Below the pieces are notes generated by a model that worked only from the letters and a program-made list of their open reading frames with translations, was not told the origin of the DNA and ran no database searches. 64,000 nucleotides of DNA, taken from Bisporella sp. PMI_857. Taxonomy: Eukaryota; Ascomycota; Leotiomycetes; Helotiales; Helotiaceae. This document shows positions 182-61,300 of this stretch, in pieces (positions within the stretch are counted from its first letter, which is position 1; each line of letters begins with the position of its first letter). Location of the stretch: contig JAJSPD010000090.1 in assembly GCA_021307315.1 (NCBI GenBank), positions 62,001 to 126,000 of the forward strand. Direction: 5' to 3'. A program made the translations under genes and the position numbers.

Positions 182-1244
182 ATGCGGCATTCGCAAGCAA
201 TATACCAAACGGCCGAGCTGGACGCAGCCGAAGAGGGTCTCCTACAGAGCGAAAAATCTGACGGAGCATTTGTTTTGAAGACAGAGCCAAATCTTGATCG
301 ATATAGGCGTAGCTGGCTCCGCCTGAATTGGAGTTGGATCCTCCAGTCGGTCATGTTGGTGTGCTCTTCGACACTTTTCATCCTATGTTGGTATGGCGAG
401 CCATCAGATGCGACATGTACACGGAAATTGTTTCCATACTGTCAGTCAAATTCACCTAGCCAAGCTGGGAGGCGGCAGTCTGATATATATCCGTTCCTCG
501 CTGACTAGTTGTTTGAACAGCACCAGCACTAGCGGCCGTCACGTATCACGAGGAGACGCTACTAGGCGCCTTTTTACAACCTTCACCCTACCGTGGAACG
601 CCCACGCCTGAGATCGACTCTCGCTGGGAGGATATCTGGGATTGGGGTGCATTCAACATCGCAGATGACAAGATTCACCTCTTGAACAAATCTAGGTCTG
701 TGAAGTGGCATCATACAGACCCAGAATTCGGTGGGGGTGTAGCAGCGCTTTCCTGGGGCTTCCATCAGATCCATTGCCTGGTAAGGTGTTCCGTGGAGAC
801 ACAACGACTATCCTAGTGGAATTCTCAGACTCATGGAGTTCACTACAGGACCTCCTTCGCCAAATGACGTACAAAGAAGAATACGAACTAGCTGGGCGAC
901 TGCCTGCGATTCTCCGCGTTGAGGAAGGACTACGCCGGGACCACTTGGGTGAGTCTTTCATCACCCATTCTGGCTCGGCGTTATGAATGCAAAAAACAAC
1001 CAGTTCCCTAATATCTATAGATCACTGCATTGAGCTGATCCGTATTGATATGATGTGTCAAGCCGATGTGACACCGTATTTTATAGTAGAAGCTTCTCTA
1101 GGCGATGCGCCTGATGACCTTAACATCGATTTTTCTGTCTTCAAAAAGTGCCGAGATTTTGGAAAGATTAAAGATTGGATGAAAGATCATGTCGCTATAG
1201 AGAGCGTCAGGGATAGTCAACTTCATAGTCATGGTCGCGTGTAA
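182..1244 (+). CDS. UstYa-family (DUF3328) oxidase-like membrane protein, copy 1
   Basis: My model is four exons, 182-440, 521-780, 849-948 and 1021-1244, giving an in-frame 280-aa protein. The intron ends are GTCAGT..CAG, GTAAGG..CAG and GTGAGT..TAG, and the first intron has a CTGAC branch site just before its acceptor. One transmembrane segment lies at about residues 53-70. The family's two signature motifs are present: HQIHC at 168-172 and HCIELIR at 208-214, followed by the usual MCQADVTP stretch and a C-terminal KCRDF..KDW segment. UstYa-type proteins catalyse oxidative modification, including cyclisation, of peptide natural products (ustiloxin, cyclochlorotine and relatives) and are usually membrane-anchored. 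It is convergent with a second family member 260 bp downstream. The substrate cannot be told from the sequence. It looks intact. Confidence 0.9.
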
Positions 1245-1505
1245 CTTCGCGGAGTTAGTCTAGAACAATATAGGAAACATATTATGTCGTAGCTAGTCAT
1301 ACTGAGGGGTTCACAAGCCAGATTCTACATCTATGTAAAATAGCTGACTAATCTAGTTAAGAATTCTGTTAAGAATGCAAAGAGACAAAACAGGTTTTGG
1401 CAAGCTGGTAAAGCTTGTTCATTCAGCTATGTTAGGTGAACTAAGAACTCGAAAAGCGCAGATCTTAAGCCCGATACTAAATACAATTTTGACCCAGTTC
1501 ACTAG

Positions 1506-2464
1506 TTATCGCTGTTCGAGCACCAACTTCTCTTGAGGGTAGAATTGAGCTTTACGGGAATTTTGCCAGTCTTTGATTAAACTGTGGTTGCGGCACTGCT
1601 TCGTTACATTGAACTCTGGTTGGAACACGTTGTACTCCTCGATTAACTTCACCGTCGCAACTCCAACATCTGCGTAGCAGAGAAGCGTTTGATACAGATA
1701 GCTAAAGCAGTGATCGGCGTGTTTTGCAAGACTAAAAGTTTCAGTGTGACTATCACTAAAGTATGACTTTCGAAGATAGTTCTAAATGCAGTTTGATTAG
1801 CTAAAGCATTAAACATGCGGGTTCCAGAGAGAAGCAGCTCACTAGGCAATGCAATTGATGGAACATTTCAATTGATACTGCGTAGCCGTTTTGTTCTCCG
1901 TATGCTCTTGCAGTGTCTCGCCCGCCAGGGAGGTTCTTCTTCTCTTCTTCAGTTATAACAATGATAATATTTTCGATTGGGTCAGCCCAAACAGAGTCTA
2001 CGTCAGGGTTCTCGCCAGAGTATGGGTCGGTGTGATTAACATATTTGTTTGTGTAAAAGGTCCCTAGAGAGTTATTCGCATCAACGGTCCGTCAACTGAC
2101 ATATTATTCTTTGGATTATGTCAGGGTACATACGGTCTTCCCAAACAATTGGTGCTCCAAGAAGATTTTCTATAATGGATTGATTAGACATAAGGACGAA
2201 AAATCCGAATTAAAATTATCTATGATACTCACCACTGAAGCATGGAGAACATGCATGTCTCTTTAGGTGATTGACAAAAATGAGGATACTGTAGGCAGAG
2301 ATCGCAAAAAAGTGAAGCAGCCATGGTAAATAAGCCGTTCTGAAAGATCTAGCTTTGCCTTTGGTTGTGTCCGTCCATACAGAGTTGATCGAGTTGTCGG
2401 ACTTTTCGTCAAGCTGTTCGACTTTGGTATACTTCTTTGAAAAGAATCCAAGCATTCTGTTCAT
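1506..2464 (-). CDS. UstYa-family (DUF3328) protein, copy 2
   Basis: Read on the minus strand, exons are 2233-2464, 2134-2154, 1843-2063 and 1506-1781, which close to a 249-aa protein. A transmembrane helix lies at about residues 45-65. The first motif is HQLHC (153-157), followed directly by NYLRKSYF; the second is HCFSYLY (182-188), where the last position is Tyr rather than the more usual Arg. The C-terminus has KQCRNHSLIKDW, typical of the family. Donors GTGAGT, GTATGT and GTGAGC are good. The oddity is intron 1: the best acceptor (TATAG at 2171-2175) breaks the frame, and the frame is kept only with a poor GGAG acceptor (exon start 2154). Either this acceptor is used or a 1-nt change has damaged the gene. 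It is convergent with copy 1. Confidence 0.78.
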
Positions 2465-3578
2465 CTACTGGTGTGACACGGTGTTGCGAAAGAGGACAGC
2501 AATGGTGGAAGCACCGACCTGCTTAGGCTGTGGCTATTGCGAAACTACCCTCGGAAGCAGCAATCTAATGCAAAATTCGCCCCGAATGTTCGGAAAAGTC
2601 AGCCGGCCGGGGTAAGAAACTAGGTATAGTGTCCGATCCGTTTGACCAAGAGCAAGCTCTGGACAGCCACTATCCACTACGTTCTTTGTAGCCAGAGTTA
2701 ATAGCAGCACTTCTGACACCAAAATACTATATTCTACCCTCATGAATAAAGCGAACTATGGTGTCAGTCCACTTTTCCTAGGATCTCTATATCTTGATTT
2801 GTCTAATATCCCAAGTGGCGAGTTACTTATGTGGCAAGGATTCTGTTCCGGCCTGCTTGCCGCAGCAGTGCTTTTTATCTGGACTTTACTTGCTGAGTGA
2901 ATTAGTTCCCCTGTTTATGCCCTTGTCGGAATAGATATCCTAGCAGCACATCCTTCGAATAACACCCGCATGGTTACTGAGAATCAGCATGATTATTAGC
3001 TCCACATGATCCTTGGTATTGCATGATTACCGGGATAGGCGTGATTACTGGTGCTTGGCATGATTACTGACATTAGTACTTTTTAACCTGTAGTCAGCAC
3101 TAAGCGAAACATATTTCAGGGTTACCTTCGGCAATAGTTCCCGTATTGCTTTGACTGCCGCCATTAGAGAATTGTTTTCTACTGTCCTCTACATATTCCA
3201 TAATTTAAGTCATGTATTAAATAATTTGAACAGAATATAACATGTCTTAGTTTTCACATGACGGTGGGGTGTTAGTTATACCTTTTGTAATAACAACAAC
3301 GATGGAAGCATAGTAACTACAGAGATATTGCTAATAATTAATAATAAATGGCGTTTATGCGAGTTTCTATTGGGTCTGCTAGAATTTGTTTGCAATTGTA
3401 AATTATTTTCAGAGTTGTGCCACCACTGCAATCGCTAAATACAGAGGGCTTATCCTAACAACTCACTATCACGAGAAAGATCAAAACTGAGTAGTCAAGT
3501 ACATACTAAGCTACTACTAGCTGTATTACATTGTGAGATTTTAGGTGATATTGTGATAAATATAATGTGCTATGCACA
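2465..3578. other. Intergenic stretch, no supported gene
   Basis: I see no coding region that I can support. It includes the upstream region of UstYa copy 2 and the short 18-bp tandem repeat described separately. The right half is AT-rich. Confidence 0.6.
2966..3072. repeat. Degenerate 18-bp tandem repeat (about six units)
   Basis: Six copies of a unit resembling gcatgattactg plus 6 variable bases follow one another at 18-19 bp spacing from about 2966 to 3072. All reading frames through it are interrupted by stops, so it does not encode a repeat peptide as it stands. Similar cgattac words recur near 9500-9590. Confidence 0.6.
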
Positions 3579-3580
3579 TA

Positions 3581-3719
3581 TAGTCAAACCTGGTTATATC
3601 GGAACGCTCGGTGCCAAACCAACCTTCCGATATAACGAGGTCCATTATAGCTACCTAAAGCTCGGCGGATCCAAGGTTTATTCCGATATAACAAGTTCCG
3701 ATATAACCAGGCTTGACTG
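3581..3719. mobile_element. MITE-like element with about 25-bp inverted repeats and TA target duplication
   Basis: The ends are imperfect inverted repeats (left tagtcaaacctgg.., right ..ccaggcttgactg) of about 25 bp, flanked by TA on both sides (3579-3580 and 3720-3721). The word ccgatataac occurs several times inside, in both orientations. It is 139 bp long with no coding capacity. The TA duplication points to a non-autonomous Tc1/mariner-type element. Confidence 0.75.
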
Positions 3720-3847
3720 TATATGATCTGGTAGTCGAGGTGCAAATCCCTTTGTTGTAGCTCCCTGTATACTAAATTTCCGCGGTCATGACAGTATATA
3801 GCATTGTCGGCTATATATTGTTATATAAATATACTTTTATTAATGCT

Positions 3848-4061
3848 TGTTACGGCGCTGGCGCGCCTACTGCTCCTATACGGCTTAACGGCACCCTAGA
3901 TGCCTGCTAGGCACCCGTAAAGAGATCACGTGCGACGTCACATTGTTCAAGGCTCCTATATATATGCCTCTTCTCCTGCATTCGTAGCTGTGCAGTTCTA
4001 TTATTCTTGGTTCTTACCCGTATTACTTTGAGCTGTTGCTCCTATTCTACACGCCGTGACA
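3848..4061 (+). mobile_element. Solo LTR (214 bp)
   Basis: It starts TGTTACGGCG and ends CGCCGTGACA, which are inverted repeats with one mismatch. The flanks are atgct and atact, a 5-bp target duplication with one G/A difference. A tatatatat stretch inside is a plausible LTR promoter. No internal retrotransposon sequence is attached. Confidence 0.6.
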
Positions 4062-4180
4062 ATACTAGCGCGCTCGTATCAATCATATTATCACTAGCAT
4101 CGTCTAAAAAACCTATATCACATCCTGTATGTGGTAATAATACTATGCACCGCCTCATATCGACCATACTGGTATCACTT

Positions 4181-5030
4181 TTATTCATCACTATCGCTAT
4201 CTTGCGAAAAGCCTTCATGCATGTCATCAACTACACTTCTCTGATCGGAAGGAACTTCTGTTTTCACTAAAGACCGGAATCGCTCCTTCATTCTTTTAAG
4301 AGCATTACGCAACGAGGGATCCTCCGGGAAAATAGAAAGGCTAACTCCAAACTCATAAAGGCTCTCTACATCTGATATCATTTGCTCGGCCCTGGACACG
4401 GGTGTGCGCTTATGTGGCTGAAACACCTCCGGCCGAGTCGGTCTCCGGGGCTCCATGTCGGTCCATAGATTCGCATCCAGTGATACTGGGGAAAAGACTA
4501 CATCTTTATCGCTTTCAACTGCTTGCCTAATATTCCCGAAATCTTGTTGCTGGTGATAGCTTGTGTCCTTATTTGTGTTTGGCATGGATAACTCATCTAA
4601 AGAGAACTGTGTACCAAAAAGCGGGAGGCTCATCTGCCGCACAGAGCTTGGGCTATTGTAATGCTGGGTCTGGCGATAAAATGCGTCCTCACGAGTAGTT
4701 GCAGTAGGAATTTCTCTGGCTCCCATCCATTCGTTGCTTGCTTGAGGAAGGCTCTCAGAAGAGAGCAAACTCGGACGGTCACTCGAAATGTATAAAGTAG
4801 CATGTTCAGAAGATGCAATACTTGAGTGTGAAACCGGTGGTGCCGCTGAGGTAATAAGGGGCCCAATCTGCTTAGCGGAGGGGATGTTCCATGAGTGCCT
4901 TGTCTTATTCCTCTCTCCTAGAATCTGTCAGTTTTCCAACAGCCGCATCGACGAAATAATCCTTACGGAATCGACGTTGTGAGTCTCTATTCTGCCGTCG
5001 CCTCTTGTCCATGGGTTGCTCATTAGCCAT
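4181..5030 (-). CDS. Small protein with a bZIP basic region
   Basis: Two exons, 4967-5030 and 4181-4917, separated by a 49-nt GTAAGG..CTAG intron, give a 266-aa protein. Residues about 9-24 read KRRRQNRDSQRRFRER, which fits the bZIP basic-region signature (N-x2-S-Q-x-R-x-R-x-R/K). The intron falls exactly inside this motif, and only the spliced form completes it. After the basic region I see no heptad leucine pattern; the sequence becomes Ser/Pro/Gln-rich and then has a short charged helix-like segment near the C-terminus and an acidic tail ending DSDSDE. It may be a DNA-binding regulator. It lies between UstYa genes, so a local pathway regulator is possible, but this is inference. A degenerate bZIP is the alternative. 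Confidence 0.7.
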
Positions 5031-5894
5031 GCCGTTGAATTTGGAATTTTACTGCCTCCTGTTCGACAGGTAAAGGTTCTAAAAACGGGCCCAGAGAGCG
5101 CAATACGCAGCGGTTGTCATCTAGCTGGGCAGCTGGGCCTACCACTTTTAGCGGCTCACTCTGCGCTAATGTAGATTCCCACGTGCATGGCTGTACGGGA
5201 CAGCCTGTGCTACAACGTGTGCGGCGCAAGATGTAGCTGGTCGCGAGAGCAAGGGTCTGGAATACCTTTTGGGCCCTTTGAATTCACATTTTAATAGTTT
5301 GCTCCGGCCACTTTTCCGCTTGGGTGACTGCATATACCAATTTATGTCAACAATAACATCTTGCAACTCATACTACAAAGACTACACGTAAATCTAAGAA
5401 ACAAGATTTTAAATCAGTCAAGTATTATATGATTAAACACGTATATTACCGCATGATATACTTTGAATGAAATTTTGAACTATTTAGTGCGTTATTTATA
5501 CTCCACTAATAGAATTTACGATAGATATGTAGACTTTCAGCGCCAAGCGTCTGATGTACTCGCCAATCATTCCGAGTCATATTATAGCGTTCCTACCCTA
5601 CGGGGCTCGGCACTGTCGTATCTGTATGTTGCTCCGCTGCATCCTTGAGGCGTGAAATGAAGTGTCGGAAGTTGGTGTTACAGTAAGGAGGGGCTTTTGG
5701 GTTTAAGCTATGATGACATTCACATCCAGTATTGCCCCGCTCCTCGACGTGCCCCTCTGTCACCCCTCCCCGCCTGTGTTGCAGAAACAGAATTGAAGCT
5801 CAGTGCCAACGCACAAACGTAGTGGATAAGATAGTAGTTTGTTGTGCCTTTGTAATAGTCGAGACTAAATACATCTAACCCATTTTCTCAAATA
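5031..5894. promoter_or_regulatory. Divergent intergenic region between the bZIP-like gene and UstYa copy 3
   Basis: No supported gene is present. The 864 bp separate two divergently transcribed genes, so both promoters should lie here. A palindromic CACGTG (E-box-like) occurs near 5180. No other clear site was recognised. Confidence 0.4.
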
Positions 5895-6657
5895 ATGTTT
5901 GACTCTCTCCTATTCTCTAGCAAAGGCTACGCTCCTCTAAATCATAACGAGAATCTAGACAAAGACGTCTCGAAATCTTTTGGTGTTGTGTTAGCCCGGC
6001 TGCTCAAATGGTTCGTTTCGATACTTGCGCTTTCTGGAGCTGGAGGCTTTGGTTTCCTTGCCGGTCGGAGGTCTATCAATGAACAAGGGGCCTTTCAATG
6101 TGAATACCTGCAATCCAAGGGGGCTATTCAAGAATTAACAAAGCGACAGTGGGCAGTTTCTCGAGAGTCTTTGTCTATAATGGGACTTATGCGGAAGACT
6201 CTAAAGAAAGTAACGCAGCGTGGAAAGAGTTGATACCCTCCCACGGCGGATTCTTCAATCACCCTACTCTTGCGCCACAGAGATCGCTTTTCTCGGTATT
6301 CCATCAGTTACACTGCCTGGTATGACCTTAGTACCTAGAACTGATATTGAGAACTGACGCACGTCCTTAAAGAATGGAATGAGGCAAGGGTATTGGGCAG
6401 TGTACCAAGCAATGAATGAGCAAACGGTTTTAGATGACGATGATATGCCACTCATGTCTTCGCCTCAACATTTTCAGCATTGCATAGACCTCCTCCGACA
6501 GGCTTTGATGTGTCAACCAGACCTGACGCTGGAACTTAAGAATGAGTCTATCGGGGGCGTGGAGGGTTTTGGGACCGAACATCAGTGTAAGGACTGGAAT
6601 CAGCTTATGAGTTTCACGAAGAAGTGGGAGACATGGGGTCTTAGCAGGGCTAGTTGA
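5895..6657 (+). CDS. UstYa-family (DUF3328) protein, copy 3
   Basis: Three exons, 5895-6099, 6150-6319 and 6373-6657, close in frame to a 219-aa protein. Intron 1 (50 nt, GTGAAT..CAG, ATTAAC branch site) and intron 2 (53 nt, GTATGA..AAG, CTGAC branch site) are normal. A transmembrane segment lies at about residues 34-56. The family motifs are HQLHC at 120-124 and HCIDLLR at 161-167, followed by QALMCQPDLT. The pre-motif segment has the family's YNGTYAEDS..AAWKELIP..GGFF pattern. It looks intact and is shorter than copy 1, mainly in the N-terminal region. As for the other copies, the expected role is oxidative tailoring of a peptide product at a membrane; the substrate is unknown. Confidence 0.9.
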
Positions 6658-8180
6658 AGCAGACGGAGGATGCACGATATAATCCACCATTACAGATACC
6701 CCGTTCCACAACGCAGTGATTCATAAGTTGGCGTTGGTGTAATGCTACGAATTTGTAAGATCAAATCCATTTTATTCACTGTCCTTTCTTTCCCATACCT
6801 TCCTCGGATGTATCTCCTACTCTTTTTTTCTTTTTACACAATGATAAAGAATGAATTTCATCGTCGATACCCCCTCGTCCGACACGACACGATTTTTGAC
6901 GGAATTTGTGGACGTGTTGGAATCCATGCAAGCCTGTAAATTGACGGTATCATCGAAGGTTGGTCTTGGGTTCGTGTCAAAGAATTTGAAGCTTATGAGC
7001 GACAGATCCATATGCTACATAGAAGGCTCGGCAGAAGCATTATAAAATGACTGATCAAAGGACAGGGGAATATAGAAGATGCACAGCCTTATCTTACCTA
7101 CATGTGAAGTTAAATATTGTAATTATTTTCCAGCGAGGGCAGGCGGATAAGTGTCACGTTGGCTTCACTGGCGTACCATCACCTGCCGAGGCGGTTTCAG
7201 TAATGGCTGAAATTTTCTTCCCTTTCAAGAGCGCATATGCCCTTTCCAAGCGGTAGCGATCATGATATACTGCTAGCCATGCCATTTCCTCTCTTCAGAC
7301 AGCCCCAAGCAGATCTAGTCCATACGTCGAAATTCCTCCTTCACAACACGAATATTCATGCCTTCTGGAAAGGAATTTCAAGCGTGGTGAATCCCTGGGC
7401 TCAGTGGCTTAGCACTAGTGTTACTAGTTAAATTGTAGAAGACCACTTGGGCGTAGAGACATAGATAACACTTAAAATAGGTGCAGCAACCTGTTGTCTT
7501 AGGTTGTGCAGTTTGGTGTGAAATTTTTTTTGGCCTCAGAGCCTAACTCCATTTCATAAAACTTAATACGAATACAAACCGCCATTATCTCTCTGTGGCG
7601 GCAAAATTGACTCCAAAATGGCATAGCAGAAATTTCGAGAAGTAAGCCCTCCTTCATGCCAGAGCCATTTTGGCATCAGCCACCCGCCGTCAGGCACCTA
7701 GTGAGCACCGGCCGCCACTTTGCCCTTGCTCTCCAACGAGTCGTGCTTTCTCTTGCTTCAGAGAATGGCAGTATGATAGCTCCATTCAATCTGCCCCTGC
7801 ACTAACCGCTTTGATGAATGGTTGCGCTGCACTTGTATTTCTAAACCTTGACGAGATGAGCCATGCTTCCATTTGCCATTCACTTTTCCTGTTCCCCATT
7901 CAGCATCCCAGTCATTAGTGCTATTTCCAAGAGGTGACTATCCCGTGCGACATCCTGGACCCTATCCCACGAAATCTTATGCCGGTCAGAGTGGGCTTAC
8001 AAGATAAAACTATTAAGATTATTAGAGATTGTTAAGGATTATCAAAGATTTATTAAAGCATATACAACTAATATGGTATCATGGTAGAGCCACGTGGAGG
8101 CTGTAGATTGTAAATATTTTGATTCCTGCACATCGTAACCTTTAAACTTACTCAAAATACATAAACACGACATCTACTTC
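6658..8180. other. Intergenic stretch, no supported gene
   Basis: Several short open frames exist but none has a recognisable motif, a good start context or a matching splice pattern. I found no repeat with clear borders here. Confidence 0.5.
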
Positions 8181-8846
8181 TTAGTAGCAGGGGACGAAAT
8201 TCACTGTTAAACGTGATATCCCAGATTCGGTACTACGTAATGATGGTGAGTTCGATAAATTGTCCAGAACTTGGTTTGTGCAGTGGAGCGTATGATTGAT
8301 ATTTTCGACCCCGGTCAACCTAAACTTGCCCTCTATTGCTCTATGGAGTCTTCGAGCCAAGAACGCGCAATGACCAAGGTGTATCTCCTCTGTTACCCAA
8401 GTCCAAATACCAATGCGCTCGGATAAATCATTCTCGTCTGCAATCCTTTGTTTCAATTGTCGGTCCTCGAACAATGGCCAAGACCCGCGTTCACGATCTG
8501 GGTCGTTTACCCAACGCCGGAATTCACCAGCTGTTTCGCGATCATAACAATCTGGAGGTATCCAACTGTAGCTCAACAAATCGAACTCACATCCTTTTTT
8601 CCTTGCCTCAGTAGTCGTATTCCCGCATTCTTGTTTCGGGTGAGAAAATTTGGGAGATGGAGATGTTGGCTCAATCGAATGCATCAGAAATCCCAAGGCT
8701 AGCGTATTTACAATCATTCCTAGGACCAGGAAATATCGTATGCTGGTAATAGTTTCTGTAGAGCAAACATGCTTTGAACTGGTACTTCCAATAATGTCGG
8801 AGCCCATCTCGGGTACCTTCTTATACTGTGGCTGGAATGGCCACAT
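8181..8846 (-). CDS. Membrane protein with two HxxHC motifs, UstYa-like
   Basis: A single-exon frame from the ATG at 8846 gives 221 aa. The frame is open for another 30 codons upstream, but MWPFQPQYKK is the more natural N-terminus. A transmembrane segment lies at about residues 36-57. The lumenal part has a CEFDLLSYSWIPPDCYD segment and then HLGHC (156-160) and HTLHC (185-189). UstYa proteins pair HxxHC with HCxxxxR, so this is a distinct but related-looking layout, which I recall from conserved fungal membrane proteins without an assigned role. It sits next to three UstYa genes, which supports a shared pathway, though this is inference. The frame is undamaged. Confidence 0.75.
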   Translation of the reverse strand: MWPFQPQYKKVPEMGSDIIGSTSSKHVCSTETITSIRYFLVLGMIVNTLALGFLMHSIEPTSPSPKFSHPKQECGNTTTEARKKGCEFDLLSYSWIPPDCYDRETAGEFRRWVNDPDRERGSWPLFEDRQLKQRIADENDLSERIGIWTWVTEEIHLGHCAFLARRLHRAIEGKFRLTGVENINHTLHCTNQVLDNLSNSPSLRSTESGISRLTVNFVPCY

Positions 8847-11512: not shown

Positions 11513-13440
11513 TCAAAGTCCAACTCTCCTGCCTGATAAAAAGGAACTGATGACGTCTTCAGTTGCCAAATCATGAAGAGCCGTCAGCAATTCCTTATCT
11601 TCCTCACTCAAGGCAGATGCGGGAGGTTTTTCAGGAACTGGGAAGTACTCAGCATCGATGCCGCATCTAAATGATCAGTTACTTTGTTGCCAAGCTTTGA
11701 GAACGGAAGAGCCTTACGTTGCACCTGCTTCTGGAAGCACCCCCTCATTCAAATATCGCTTAATATGTTTTGCAGTACAAAGCGAAGGCATGCTGAGGAT
11801 GCAGTGACCGTATGACTTCTGCTCCAAGAAACCAGCGCCCTCAAAGCTATTATAAGCTTTCTTCGCAGAGGCCAATGGACAAACGGGATCCCACGTAGTT
11901 GACAGTACGAGTATTGGTTCTGCAGTTTTGAGCCGAGGAAACTTAGGGTGATATTGAGGGTGGAAGCTATGGGTTGTTGAAATCGACCACGAAGCCCGAT
12001 CGAAAACATCCGATCCTTGATATTTCGAAATCAGAGCCGATATCTCTGGCCTGGATATAGTGTAGTTCTGGATCGGTTTTATGCCGTGAACTGGTGCTTC
12101 TAGTCCAGTCTTCCGGTTGTCATTCATAATGACGAAACTGGTTGCCTCATCCACAAGGATGCTCGAGACTCTTGAATCGGAGTATGCATTGTATACAGGC
12201 GTGCTGTTGCCATTCAAAAGTGCCGCAAGGTTTTTCGCCAGCAACGGCCAAGTAGGAATCGGTTTGTACAGTGCAATGAATATTCCATTAGTTACAAGTT
12301 TTCTCCGGGTAATAGCGCCATAGTTGGAGTTATTTACGTAGACGGGAATTGGCTCCTCCTCCAAATCTTTGAGGAAGTCATCGATATAGCTCTTGAGCTC
12401 GCCGGGTGAGTTGAAAGATTTCTTCATGATCGTATTCAGCGCGCAAGCTTCTTTAGCTTTGAAACATTCTTCGACAAAGCCAGCAAAGATTCTGTCGGTG
12501 TCAATCAAAGACTCTTCGAAAAGAAATGCATTGTACCATTCATCTAAATTGCTGACGCCGTCAATTATGAATCGGGAGACACGATCTGGAAACATTTGGG
12601 CATATGTCTGGCCGAGGGTAGTCCCATCTGTGCATGTTAGCTGAATCGTCCCAGAGCGGAAAGAAATAACTGACAACTAAATCCCCAGTAATACATCTTC
12701 TCCTGTCCAATCGCATCAAGAATAAAGTCCATATCAGCAGCCGTCTGAGGAGTATTCACGTATCCTCCATACTCACCCATCGTATCTTTACACGCTTTTG
12801 CCTTGTTTTCGGCCCTGGTGTACATCTCACCAGCTTCGAATTCAAGATCCCAAGGGTTGTTTGCAAACGACTCGACTCGCTGGGCGTCAGTTGGGTAGCA
12901 AATTGCTCGCGGGATTGATCCATTTACACCCCGAGGATCGAAACTGAGCAAGTGGAAGCCTTCTCCAATCAGTTTATTCAGACTACCGCCCCCTGCCCGA
13001 AGAAAATTCACTCCGCTAGCTACGAGATGAGTAAATATCGCGCCTATTGGAGTGGCAACATACCTCCGGGCCCTCCGGGATTCATTAAAATGTGCCTATC
13101 TCCGGTAGTCGAGGCGTCTGCTGCTAGCATTCTAATCAGAGGAATCGAGAACAACTTATTTGACCATTTGCTGAAATGATCCATCGGAACATCGAGTCGG
13201 GAGCCTTGTCTTGTTAACCCAGTTCCGAATCGAAAACAAGGGAAGGCGTTTACATTCGAGGGTGTGATTGTTGATCTCACCGCACGCTTCCCATCTCAGC
13301 TTGGATTTGGAGCCCGCATTGAGGTTTAGAGGTGCCTGAGATTCTTTTGCCAGGCACGAAGCGACCAGCCCGGAAGAGACCACCATCGCTACCAGAATAT
13401 AGATGAGGCCGTTCCGGCCCTTCGGTTCGCTATGCATCAT
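11513..13440 (-). CDS. Membrane-anchored S33-family (TAP-like) serine peptidase
   Basis: Five exons (13254-13440, 13064-13204, 12675-13019, 11718-12627, 11513-11666) close to 578 aa. Introns are 44-51 nt. The N-terminus has a hydrophobic stretch at about residues 11-30 (signal peptide or anchor). The alpha/beta-hydrolase fold is clear: an oxyanion-type MNPGGPGASG segment, the DPRG segment, the nucleophile elbow GFSYG (Ser224), Asp471 in TTWDP and His499 in YGHC. The last exon adds the conserved Cys-containing C-terminal tail. The family includes tripeptidyl aminopeptidases that release N-terminal peptides outside the plasma membrane. The gene looks complete. Its nearness to UstYa genes leaves room for a role in maturing a peptide product, but ordinary nutrient proteolysis is equally possible. 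Confidence 0.88.
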
Positions 13441-57094: not shown

Positions 57095-57350
57095 AAATGC
57101 ATATGCAAAATCAACTAAACCCCATATGCATGCTTTATCGGAAACCCGTGGTGGACTGCGGAACGCTTTAAAGCTGCCAAAGAGTACCGGCAAGCCCGCC
57201 GCGTATCCGACGACTGCTGTGAAACAAAAAGAACGCTGCGGAATACAGTACGGCGTGTGTCAGAAATATAATATTGATAAAGGTATCACATCGATAGAAT
57301 ACGGGTTGTTGTGTGCTTGTATTATGTGATCTGTATCTACGTTGTAGACA

Positions 57351-57578
57351 TGTAAGAGATTTCTAGTTCCTTGGCCATTACGTAAGCCAATTCCTGACGC
57401 GTATCACGGTCCGAGAGATCACATGCACGACGTACTGACCATGTCGCGCCACAACCGCGAACGCTCATTGGTTCGCCTAGCTAAGACCTTGGAACTGGCT
57501 ATGGTTATATAAGGGCGGTTCTAGCAGTAGTTACACCTTTTCTTTTTAGTTTAGAATCTTCGTGTTTGATACCTTACA
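57351..57578 (+). mobile_element. Probable solo LTR (228 bp) in the LINE remnant
   Basis: It starts TGTAAGAGAT and ends ATACCTTACA (inverted TGTAAG/CTTACA ends). A ggttatataaggg word inside looks like a TATA element. No target duplication is recognised, but LINE coding fragments lie on both sides. Confidence 0.5.
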
Positions 57579-57770
57579 AACAGCTATCACTGGCGCCTGT
57601 ATCGGGATCGTGATACGGCGTGCTAAAAACCTTTTCTATCGCGAGCTGCTTAACGCCGCAACAAGCAAGAACGTTTTCGAAATAGCGAAATGGCACAAGT
57701 CTACAGGCTTGTTCATGCGTAACAAACAGAAGGCAGCAAGATGGATTGCAATATTCAAGTAAAACACGTG

Positions 57771-58370: not shown

Positions 58371-61300
58371 TTAGAGTATCTTGCGGCGTTTTGACTTTAG
58401 AGGACGTTCTTTTGCACCTAAATCTAACTCTTTTTGTTGTAATATGTTCGGTGGCTCTTCTACCCCTTCAGAGACGTTATCCGCCACAGCATCTAACACA
58501 CGTAGTATGTCCTGTAGACTCTTTGAGCGTGGATGATCAGACCCAACAGCATTATTATACCCATGTAAAGCTTTTGAATACATTATCCTAGCGTTTGATA
58601 GGTCCCCCCGACGTCTGAAGATAGATGCAATGCTGTATGTCATATCGAGCGCAGGTAGGTACGTCTCAAAATTTGCACCGAGCGCATTTTCGTATCCTTG
58701 CAGCGCCTGCTGGTACATCTCCTCTGCTTCGCCGAGCTTCCCCTGATCTGCATAGAGATTCCCTAAGTTGCGAATCGTGTTGAGCGCAGGCAGGAACGTC
58801 TCAAAATTTGCATCGAGCGCTTTTTCGTATCCTTGAAGCGCTCGCTGGTACATCTTTTCTGCTTCACCGAGCTTGCCCTGGTCTACGTAAAGGAGCCCTA
58901 AGTTGCCAACTATTTGAGAGTCGATGTATGCTCTGCACCGAGCGCATTTTCGTATCCTTGCAGCGCCCGCTGGTACATTTCTTCTGCTTCGCCGAGCTTG
59001 CCCTGGTTTTTATAAACATTTCCTAAGTTGTTAATCGTGCCGAGAGTCGAGATGTGTTTAGCACCAAGCGCTTTTTCGTATCCTTGCAGCGCTTGCCGGT
59101 ACATCATTTCTGCTTTGTCGAGCTTGCTCTGGTTTACGTAAAAGAGCCCTGAGTTGCCAATCGCGCAAAAAGTCGATGTGTGCTTTGCACCGAGCGCGTT
59201 TTCGTACCCTTGGAGCGTCTGCTGGTACATTTTTTCTGCTTCGCCGAGCTTGCCCTGGTCTGCATAGAGATTTCCTAAGTTGTGAAACGTGTTGAGCGCA
59301 GGCAGGTACGTCTCGAAATTTGCACCAAGCGCTTTCTCGTATCCTTGCAGCGCTTGCTGGTACATCATCTCTGCTTTGTCGAGCTTGCTCTGGTCCACGT
59401 AAAGGACCCCTAAGTTGTTAATTGTGGAAAGAGTCGATATGTGTTCTGCACCCAGCGTTTTTTCGAATCCTTGCAGTGCCAGCTGGTACATCATTTCTGC
59501 TTTGCCGAGCTTGCCCTGGTTTTTATAAAGATTTCCTAAGTTGTTAATTGCGCGAAAAGTCGATGTATGCTCTGCACCGACCGTATTCTTGTATCCTTGG
59601 AGCGCCCACTGGTACATTTTTTCTGCTTCGCCGAGCTTGCCCTGGTCTCTATAGAGACCTCCTAAGCTGTGAATTGTGCGAAGAGTTAATGTGTGTCTTG
59701 CACCAAGCGCTTTTTCGTGTCCTTGAAGCGCTCGCTGGTACATCTTCTCTGCTTCGCCGAGCTTGCCCTGGTTTGCATAAAGGCCTCCTAAATTGTGAAT
59801 TATGCCAATAGTCGATATGTGTTCAGCACCGAGCGCGTTTTTGCATCCTTGAAGCGCCAGCTGGTACATCTCTTCTGCTTCGCTGAGCTTGCCCTGGTTT
59901 TTATAAACATTTCCTAAGCTGCCAATCGTGCGAAAAGCCGATGTATGCTCTGCACCGACCGTATTCTTGTATCTTTGGAGCGCCCACTGGTACATCTTCT
60001 CTGCTTCACCGAGCTTGCCCTGGTCTGAGTAAAGGAGCCCTAAGTTGTGACATGCCCATGCCATTGTATCGTCTTCTACCAGATCTTCTGAAAACATGTA
60101 CGAACATCTAGCTGCATGTTTGAGCAGTCGTCGTTGTGTCACCCATGGTCGAAGATCCTGATTGCTCGGGGCATGTGAGCCTATCAACCTCACAGCTAAG
60201 GTAGCCAGGATTTTATCCCATTTTTGGTTTAGAATATGGATTGTCCATGAATGGACACATGTATGAATACTGTAGCCTCTTGACTCAATTAGTTCCTCTG
60301 ATGTTGTGTCTACTTCTACTAGCCCATAGTCGCATAGAACCCTGACCGCATCGTGGAAGCTTAACTCGTTATTGACGAGCTCTCGTACCCAGATTGGGTC
60401 CTCAGCATTGCTATGTCGAAGGAGCTCAAACCAAAGATCCTGGTTATCAAAGTACGCCCAAAAACAAAGAAGCTTGGCCGAAAGCTCATTCCGCTTTTGA
60501 ACATGCTCAAACGATATTTGCCATGTAGAATAAAGCGTCCGGTCTTCATACGAGGTCAGCTTAGGTGTCAACTTCTGTAAACTGGCCCACGAATCTTTGT
60601 ATAAGCGGAGATAGTTTAACGGACTTAGTGCCACTTGATCAAGATATGCTCCAGCAGTAGCAAGTGCAAGAGGAAATCCGTCTAACTCCCTGACCAGTTT
60701 GATTGCATCAGGATCTAGCTTCTAAGTCAGGGCGGGAAATATCAGATCAAGAATAGCCTCACCATTTTTCAAGCCTCCTCGTCTTGAAGTATATGCTAAA
60801 ATATCCAGGCCGTCAGCGACGTTCAACAGCTTTTGGACTTGGATGCGACGGCCGAATGTGACTTGCGACGACCGTGTTGTGACAATCACTGAACCATGAT
60901 ATGCTTCGGGAAGGAATTTTTGAATGTCCAGTGCTGCAGGACCTGCGTTTCCTACTGATTTAGGGTTGTCGTAATTATCATATATCATAAGCCATCGCGT
61001 ATTGTTAGCTAGACTTAGCCATACCTTCACTGCATCAATTACTTCGTCCATGTTTCCATTTATATCTGTACTATTAAGTCGGCTAGCTGATGGGTGCTCT
61101 CGCAGTATCTGCCGTGCTATACTAGCAAAGCTTTGTTTTAACGAATATTCATCCTTAATATTTAGCCAGAATATTCCTGAGTAGTTCGCTTTATGTCGCT
61201 TGGCGTACGCGACTGCTAGCTGCGTTTTGCCGATTCCACCTAGGCCATGGAGGACAATCACACGTCGAGAGCCGTCACTAATAAGGTATTTATGCATTTC

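Follow-up and report, generated by a model that had tools for sequence, protein, structure and literature searches.

The window analysed here, a stretch of 64,000 nucleotides from the fungus Bisporella sp. PMI_857 (contig JAJSPD010000090.1, hereafter C275, positions 62001-126000), carries at its left end part of a gene cluster that, judged from sequence, very probably directs production of a dikaritin-like ribosomally synthesized and post-translationally modified peptide (RiPP), in which UstYa-type enzymes would act on a Trp/Tyr-rich core supplied by an exon-split precursor. Five UstYa genes (A-E), one double-HxxHC membrane protein gene (F) and one precursor gene span 13.9 kb. An earlier note on the window had seen no core gene and suggested that it might lie left of position 1, taking the lack of one within about 30 kb as the finding that would count against a cluster; the precursor gene was found at C275:60323-60729, 1,272 bases from the window edge, which supports that suggestion, and since D and E also lie left of position 1 the cluster is larger than the window view. 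The genome searched comprises 55.6 Mb in 284 contigs. C275 is 167.7 kb long; the DNA left of the window (C275:1-62000) was read, and C275:126001-167723 was covered solely by family searches (condensation domain, tyrosinase, S41 peptidase and UstYa, the last with PF11807, whose Pfam cut-off is 25 bits). Window positions equal C275 positions minus 62000. From left to right the cluster genes are:

C275:56946-57101, 57149-57275, 57361-57701, minus strand: gene E, UstYa, 207 aa, PF11807 62.4 bits
C275:58589-58677, 58863-59324, 59465-59726, minus strand: gene D, UstYa, 270 aa, PF11807 153.2 bits
C275:60323-60415, 60471-60581, 60637-60729, plus strand: precursor gene, 98 aa, period-166 tandem repeat, identical to NCBI B0O99DRAFT_747326
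Window 182-440, 521-780, 849-948, 1021-1244, plus strand: gene A, UstYa, 280 aa, four exons, PF11807 140.7 bits, E-value 8e-41
Window 1506-1781, 1843-2063, 2134-2169, 2233-2464, minus strand: gene B, UstYa, 254 aa, four exons, PF11807 117.5 bits, E-value 1e-33
Window 5895-6099, 6150-6319, 6373-6657, plus strand: gene C, UstYa, 219 aa, three exons, PF11807 85.1 bits, E-value 8e-24
Window 8181-8846 (stop included), minus strand: gene F, membrane protein, 221 aa, single exon, two HxxHC motifs

The precursor gene, located between D and A, was detected through its tandem repeat in the DNA. Its start and that of D, which is on the opposite strand, are 596 bp apart; the two genes are divergent and carry consecutive NCBI locus tags (B0O99DRAFT_747325 for D and B0O99DRAFT_747326 for the precursor). 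They thereby show the dikaritin arrangement, in which a precursor gene has a UstYa (DUF3328) gene as its neighbour. The encoded protein reads MKLSTYILATISLSTSVLAAPMIMGRSPDIK / ARSPQGSFIWLWYGEDADPTAESTETTVVEKRSTDIK / ARSPQGSFIWLWYGEDADPTAESTEGESTA, where the slashes mark two phase-0 introns of 55 bp each, and opens with a hydrophobic N-terminus, MKLSTYILATISLSTSVLA, which by eye is signal-like. Its two repeats (ARSPQGSFIWLWYGEDADPTAESTE) occupy one exon apiece, share 25 identical residues and are separated by EKR. The repeat exons can be aligned over 25 codons and then diverge; all seven nucleotide differences within these codons are synonymous, where a simple two-to-one transition model predicts a synonymous fraction of 0.25 (P ~6e-5), and the repeat looks to be under constraint. 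The two introns are identical at 41 of 55 positions, and exons 1 and 2 end in similar tails (MGRSPDIK and EKRSTDIK, respectively), so that the duplicated unit spans the intron and exon and intron were duplicated together in tandem. Within the repeat the aromatic stretch FIWLWYG is the likely oxidation target, with core boundaries that we infer.

All five PF11807 scores (62.4-153.2 bits) lie above the cut-off. The three spliced UstYa genes that had been described in the window (A, B and C) are confirmed, with scores far beyond chance, the match of C covering profile positions 129-219. D and E correspond to the genome matches at C275:58864-59331 and 57146-57277, respectively. The models of B and D are identical to annotated proteins (B0O99DRAFT_677883 over 254 aa and B0O99DRAFT_747325 over 270 residues); A, C and E are without a matching annotated protein, and the support for their models therefore comes from splice signals and from the family profile, the model of E requiring a GC-AG intron. 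The observation that the UstYa copies differ also holds once D is included (31% identity to A, 21% to B, 27% to C and 29% to E), and we infer that A-E catalyse distinct oxidation steps.

A decaying cluster, with only two repeats left in its precursor, UstYa copies that are redundant and a lost product, would be compatible with a RiPP origin and could draw on the low repeat number, the GC-AG intron of E, and the HET proteins and possible transposon remnants nearby. It is distinctly unlikely, given that the frames of all seven gene models (A-F and the precursor) are intact, that the aligned repeats differ only synonymously, that D is strongly conserved, and that a two-repeat gigA is reported for an Epichloe strain where epichloecyclin A is detected (PMC7317419).

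A non-ribosomal peptide synthetase (NRPS) had been named as the alternative kind of core gene, and it is conceivable that the UstYa genes serve an NRPS of the cyclochlorotine/astin type, or another pathway, whose core is located elsewhere. The genome does contain 85 condensation-domain matches, but none of them lies on C275, all 167.7 kb of which was searched, and a plausible RiPP core is present inside the cluster; an NRPS is accordingly disfavoured and this explanation highly improbable. It is likewise unlikely that the 98-aa protein stays unmodified, as a secreted peptide of signalling or pheromone-like kind, while the UstYa genes act on a different substrate. Modification cannot be read from sequence, and 6120 of the 7878 Kex2-processed repeat proteins in the 2020 survey of PMC7329392 have no UstYa neighbour; the present precursor, however, is the divergent, consecutively tagged neighbour of D and has five UstYa genes around it. 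In that survey 22% of Kex2-processed repeat proteins have UstYa neighbours, and by its own counts UstYa genes are enriched beside them.

Several results weigh against a dikaritin-like RiPP cluster. The precursor has just two repeats and one KR, and no dibasic site immediately flanks the putative core. With two repeats and a kexin-type site between them it falls within the dikaritin criterion of PMC9632046 (a minimum of one tandem repeat, 10 aa or longer, with putative kexin sites as separators) and outside the definition of a Kex2-processed repeat protein in PMC7329392 (three or more tandem repeats, each 8 aa or longer, set between Kex2 sites). No homologue of the precursor was found in the protein collection searched, nor elsewhere in the genome. 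None of the 36 tyrosinase matches and neither of the two S41 peptidase matches in the genome lies on C275, which speaks against the ustiloxin/phomopsin subtype. A, C and E had no close orthologues in the profile search with A-E, where A was never the best-matching query and matches to C and E were all below ~40% identity. Finally, no B was listed on the same contig for eight of the 12 named D records described below, and no D for six of the ten B records.

That profile search yielded 102 proteins from 2365 candidates, with clustering at 90% identity and at most 100 words; the clustering and the word sampling make missing D/B partners weak evidence and could explain part of them. Orthologues of D at 60-75% identity were found in 12 named fungi outside Bisporella: Knufia, A. 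ibericus, A. tubingensis, A. niger, M. anisopliae, M. guizhouense, M. robertsii, Monosporascus, Apiospora hydei, Lophiotrema, Paraphaeosphaeria and Pyrenochaeta. They belong to Eurotiomycetes, Sordariomycetes and Dothideomycetes, the class having been checked for Knufia, Apiospora, Lophiotrema and Metarhizium. Metagenome fragments match D at up to 84% over part of its length, and Basidiomycota carry D-like proteins at 33-44% identity. For ten named records the best match is B (43-69% identity). D and B orthologues stand on contigs of equal size in A. ibericus, A. hydei, M. robertsii and A. niger (4/12 named D records, 4/10 named B records), and in two species their locus tags are three apart (PG997_014142 and 014139 in A. 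hydei; MAA_06597 and 06600 in M. robertsii). This points to B accompanying D in some species, and not to a universal pairing. No mention of the orthologue locus tags was found in the literature search.

Gene F had been set apart from the UstYa genes as a membrane protein with two HxxHC motifs. It does carry two, but the trait is not distinctive, because all five UstYa proteins A-E have two as well, and it was dropped as a character separating F from UstYa. No Pfam family, PF11807 included, matched F at an E-value of 0.1. A comparison of F and UstYa profiles placed both HxxHC motifs in register with a weak score (probability 2.2, P 0.022), and predicted models of D and F each show one long N-terminal helix, with the HxxHC motifs near the starts of two successive helices; homology of F to UstYa was nevertheless dropped as a proven relationship, the profile score being too weak despite the paired motifs and similar helix placement. 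Sixteen F-like proteins were found by search, 15 at 36-48% identity, and when F is aligned with these 15 relatives both motifs are invariant. The sixteenth is 99.5% identical and encoded on a 1,013-base metagenome contig, indicating that the fungal species or a close one is present in environmental samples. The Bisporella genome has 12 matches to the F family. Setting F itself aside, four of the remaining 11 have a UstYa match no more than 5 kb away (on C199, C13, C226 and C200, at distances of 1.9-4.4 kb) and the other seven are on contigs without a UstYa match. UstYa neighbourhoods make up 0.77% of the genome, giving a binomial P of ~1e-6 for this co-location, with the 5-kb cut-off chosen post hoc and the clustering of secondary-metabolism genes uncorrected. 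F probably represents a UstYa-associated family.

Across the genome, UstYa exon matches number 75 and form 38 loci when gaps of up to 10 kb are allowed; 17 of the 37 besides that on C275 were read. Precursor candidates with repeats were seen at seven of these 17 (L020, L022, L023, L027, L030, L031 and L034), a proportion that has no matched UstYa-free control; no signal sequence was seen in the L020, L023 and L034 candidates. The closest parallel is L022, where a signal-like first exon is followed by 57-bp repeat exons of the GVAILNRGENKVEGYTGPG type with ~62-bp introns in register and no dibasic site. The repeats at L031 also appear to be separated by introns. The candidates, together with a small secreted-like protein at L025, are:

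L022, C13:1009000-1018999, 2323-2851, minus strand: flanked by an F-family match on one side and a UstYa gene on the other
L031, C2:75000-84999, 6948-7766, plus strand: Tyr/Gly/Pro-rich repeats with KR sites, near UstYa
L020, 24-416, plus strand: Kex2-type repeat precursor candidate beside UstYa
L023, 2493-3179, minus strand: Kex2-type repeat precursor candidate beside UstYa
L027, 5844-6295, plus strand: Kex2-type repeat precursor candidate beside UstYa
L030, 6805-7332, plus strand: Kex2-type repeat precursor candidate beside UstYa
L034, 7530-7931, plus strand: Kex2-type repeat precursor candidate beside UstYa
L025, C200:627500-637499, 5344-5562, plus strand: the secreted-like protein, which has one KR and only one possible core; UstYa genes around it, an F-family gene nearby

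Scans of the remainder of C275 turned up arrays resembling WD40, TPR and transposon sequences, plus a single Cys-rich repeat protein that lacks dibasic sites (named by eye). Tyrosinase matches within ~2 kb of UstYa occur at C101:661333-662036 and 671176-671831 and at C112:940245-940942, the only two such UstYa loci when the lists were compared by eye.

In the proposed pathway, the 98-aa precursor would enter the secretory pathway, where a Kex2-type protease encoded elsewhere would cleave between the repeats, at the KR, and possibly also at further basic residues. The membrane-anchored UstYa enzymes would then oxidise the segment around SFIWLWYG, probably cross-linking Trp and Tyr side chains, with D and B as the likely core enzyme pair, A, C and E contributing accessory steps, and F, a UstYa-associated protein whose motif pair is similar, probably assisting. 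Later proteolysis would remove the acidic follower EDADPTAESTE. The product would be expected to yield ions of segments around SPQGSFIWLWYGE that are lighter by 2 Da for each oxidative cross-link. The precursor itself probably grew by tandem duplication of an exon with its intron, which gave each core its own exon.

A precursor with two repeats split by introns falls below the three-repeat rule of PMC7329392 and would be missed by such mining, and the locus is a concrete case of how repeat-based mining misses a precursor. Within the literature searched, partly available as excerpts, no description was found of introns between the repeats of such precursors, the one paper that matched on all terms mentioning introns in connection with gene prediction; the words intron and exon do not occur in PMC7099791 or PMC6339444. 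An excerpt of PMC9769878 mentions 'intron-less KEP gene sequences' from cDNA without stating intron positions, wording which implies that introns are known from repeat-protein genes of Agaricomycetes. Tentatively, and with rather more doubt than confidence, the locus could represent a widespread unrecognised class of fungal RiPPs, with a conserved D, often B, a Trp/Tyr cross-linked core and few cores each on its own exon, the F family then being a second, unnamed class of UstYa-partner enzymes. If so, exon-split precursors would account for some of the UstYa clusters for which no precursor has been reported; PMC12048977 found no repeat precursor for its two clans. The locus also supplies a search recipe, namely exon-plus-intron tandem duplications in the DNA beside UstYa genes, a conserved enzyme (D) traceable across Ascomycota and a candidate partner family (F), and a Trp-rich core would broaden UstYa chemistry.

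A Pfam scan of 22 neighbouring open frames around the cluster gave a TAP-like hydrolase, NmrA, a fungal transcription factor, two PhyH, HET, WD40 and 2EXR, besides weak, sub-threshold transposon-type matches. The hydrolase, probably one gene made up of two overlapping open frames, is a possible, unproven cluster member. The features set apart here are:

Window 11717-13095, minus strand: TAP-like alpha/beta hydrolase, PF08386 49.7 bits, PF00561 25.6 bits (just below its 25.8 cut-off)
Window 4184-4927, minus strand: 248-aa open frame between B and C, without Pfam match
Window 58647-60050: ~126-bp repeat array in a long minus-strand frame, of tetratricopeptide-type look by eye

Compared with known systems, the cluster resembles those of the dikaritins (ustiloxin, phomopsin, asperipin-2a and victorin) in having UstYa genes beside a secreted-type precursor with repeated cores and basic cleavage sites. 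It differs from them in having only two repeats, one per exon, a Trp-Leu-Trp-Tyr core and a long acidic follower; the F-family protein present here is a possible further difference. The ustiloxin and phomopsin clusters include an S41 peptidase, which C275 lacks among its matches. They also include a tyrosinase (PMC7329392), likewise without a match on C275, and phomopsin, as here, has several UstYa genes, five in its case (PMC7329392). Like the gigA cluster of the epichloecyclins, the present one combines a secreted-type precursor having long repeats (27 aa in gigA, of which a two-repeat form exists; PMC7317419) with a DUF3328 gene and a hypothetical protein, but the gigA cluster has its own kexB, whereas none was noticed here, kexins not having been searched as a family. 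Several UstYa-family genes are also a property of the cyclochlorotine and astin NRPS clusters, from which this one is separated by the lack of a condensation-domain match on C275. The cluster is a variant of the known dikaritin-like kind, made distinctive by its one-repeat-per-exon precursor, its Trp-rich core, the conserved D accompanied by B in some species, and F.

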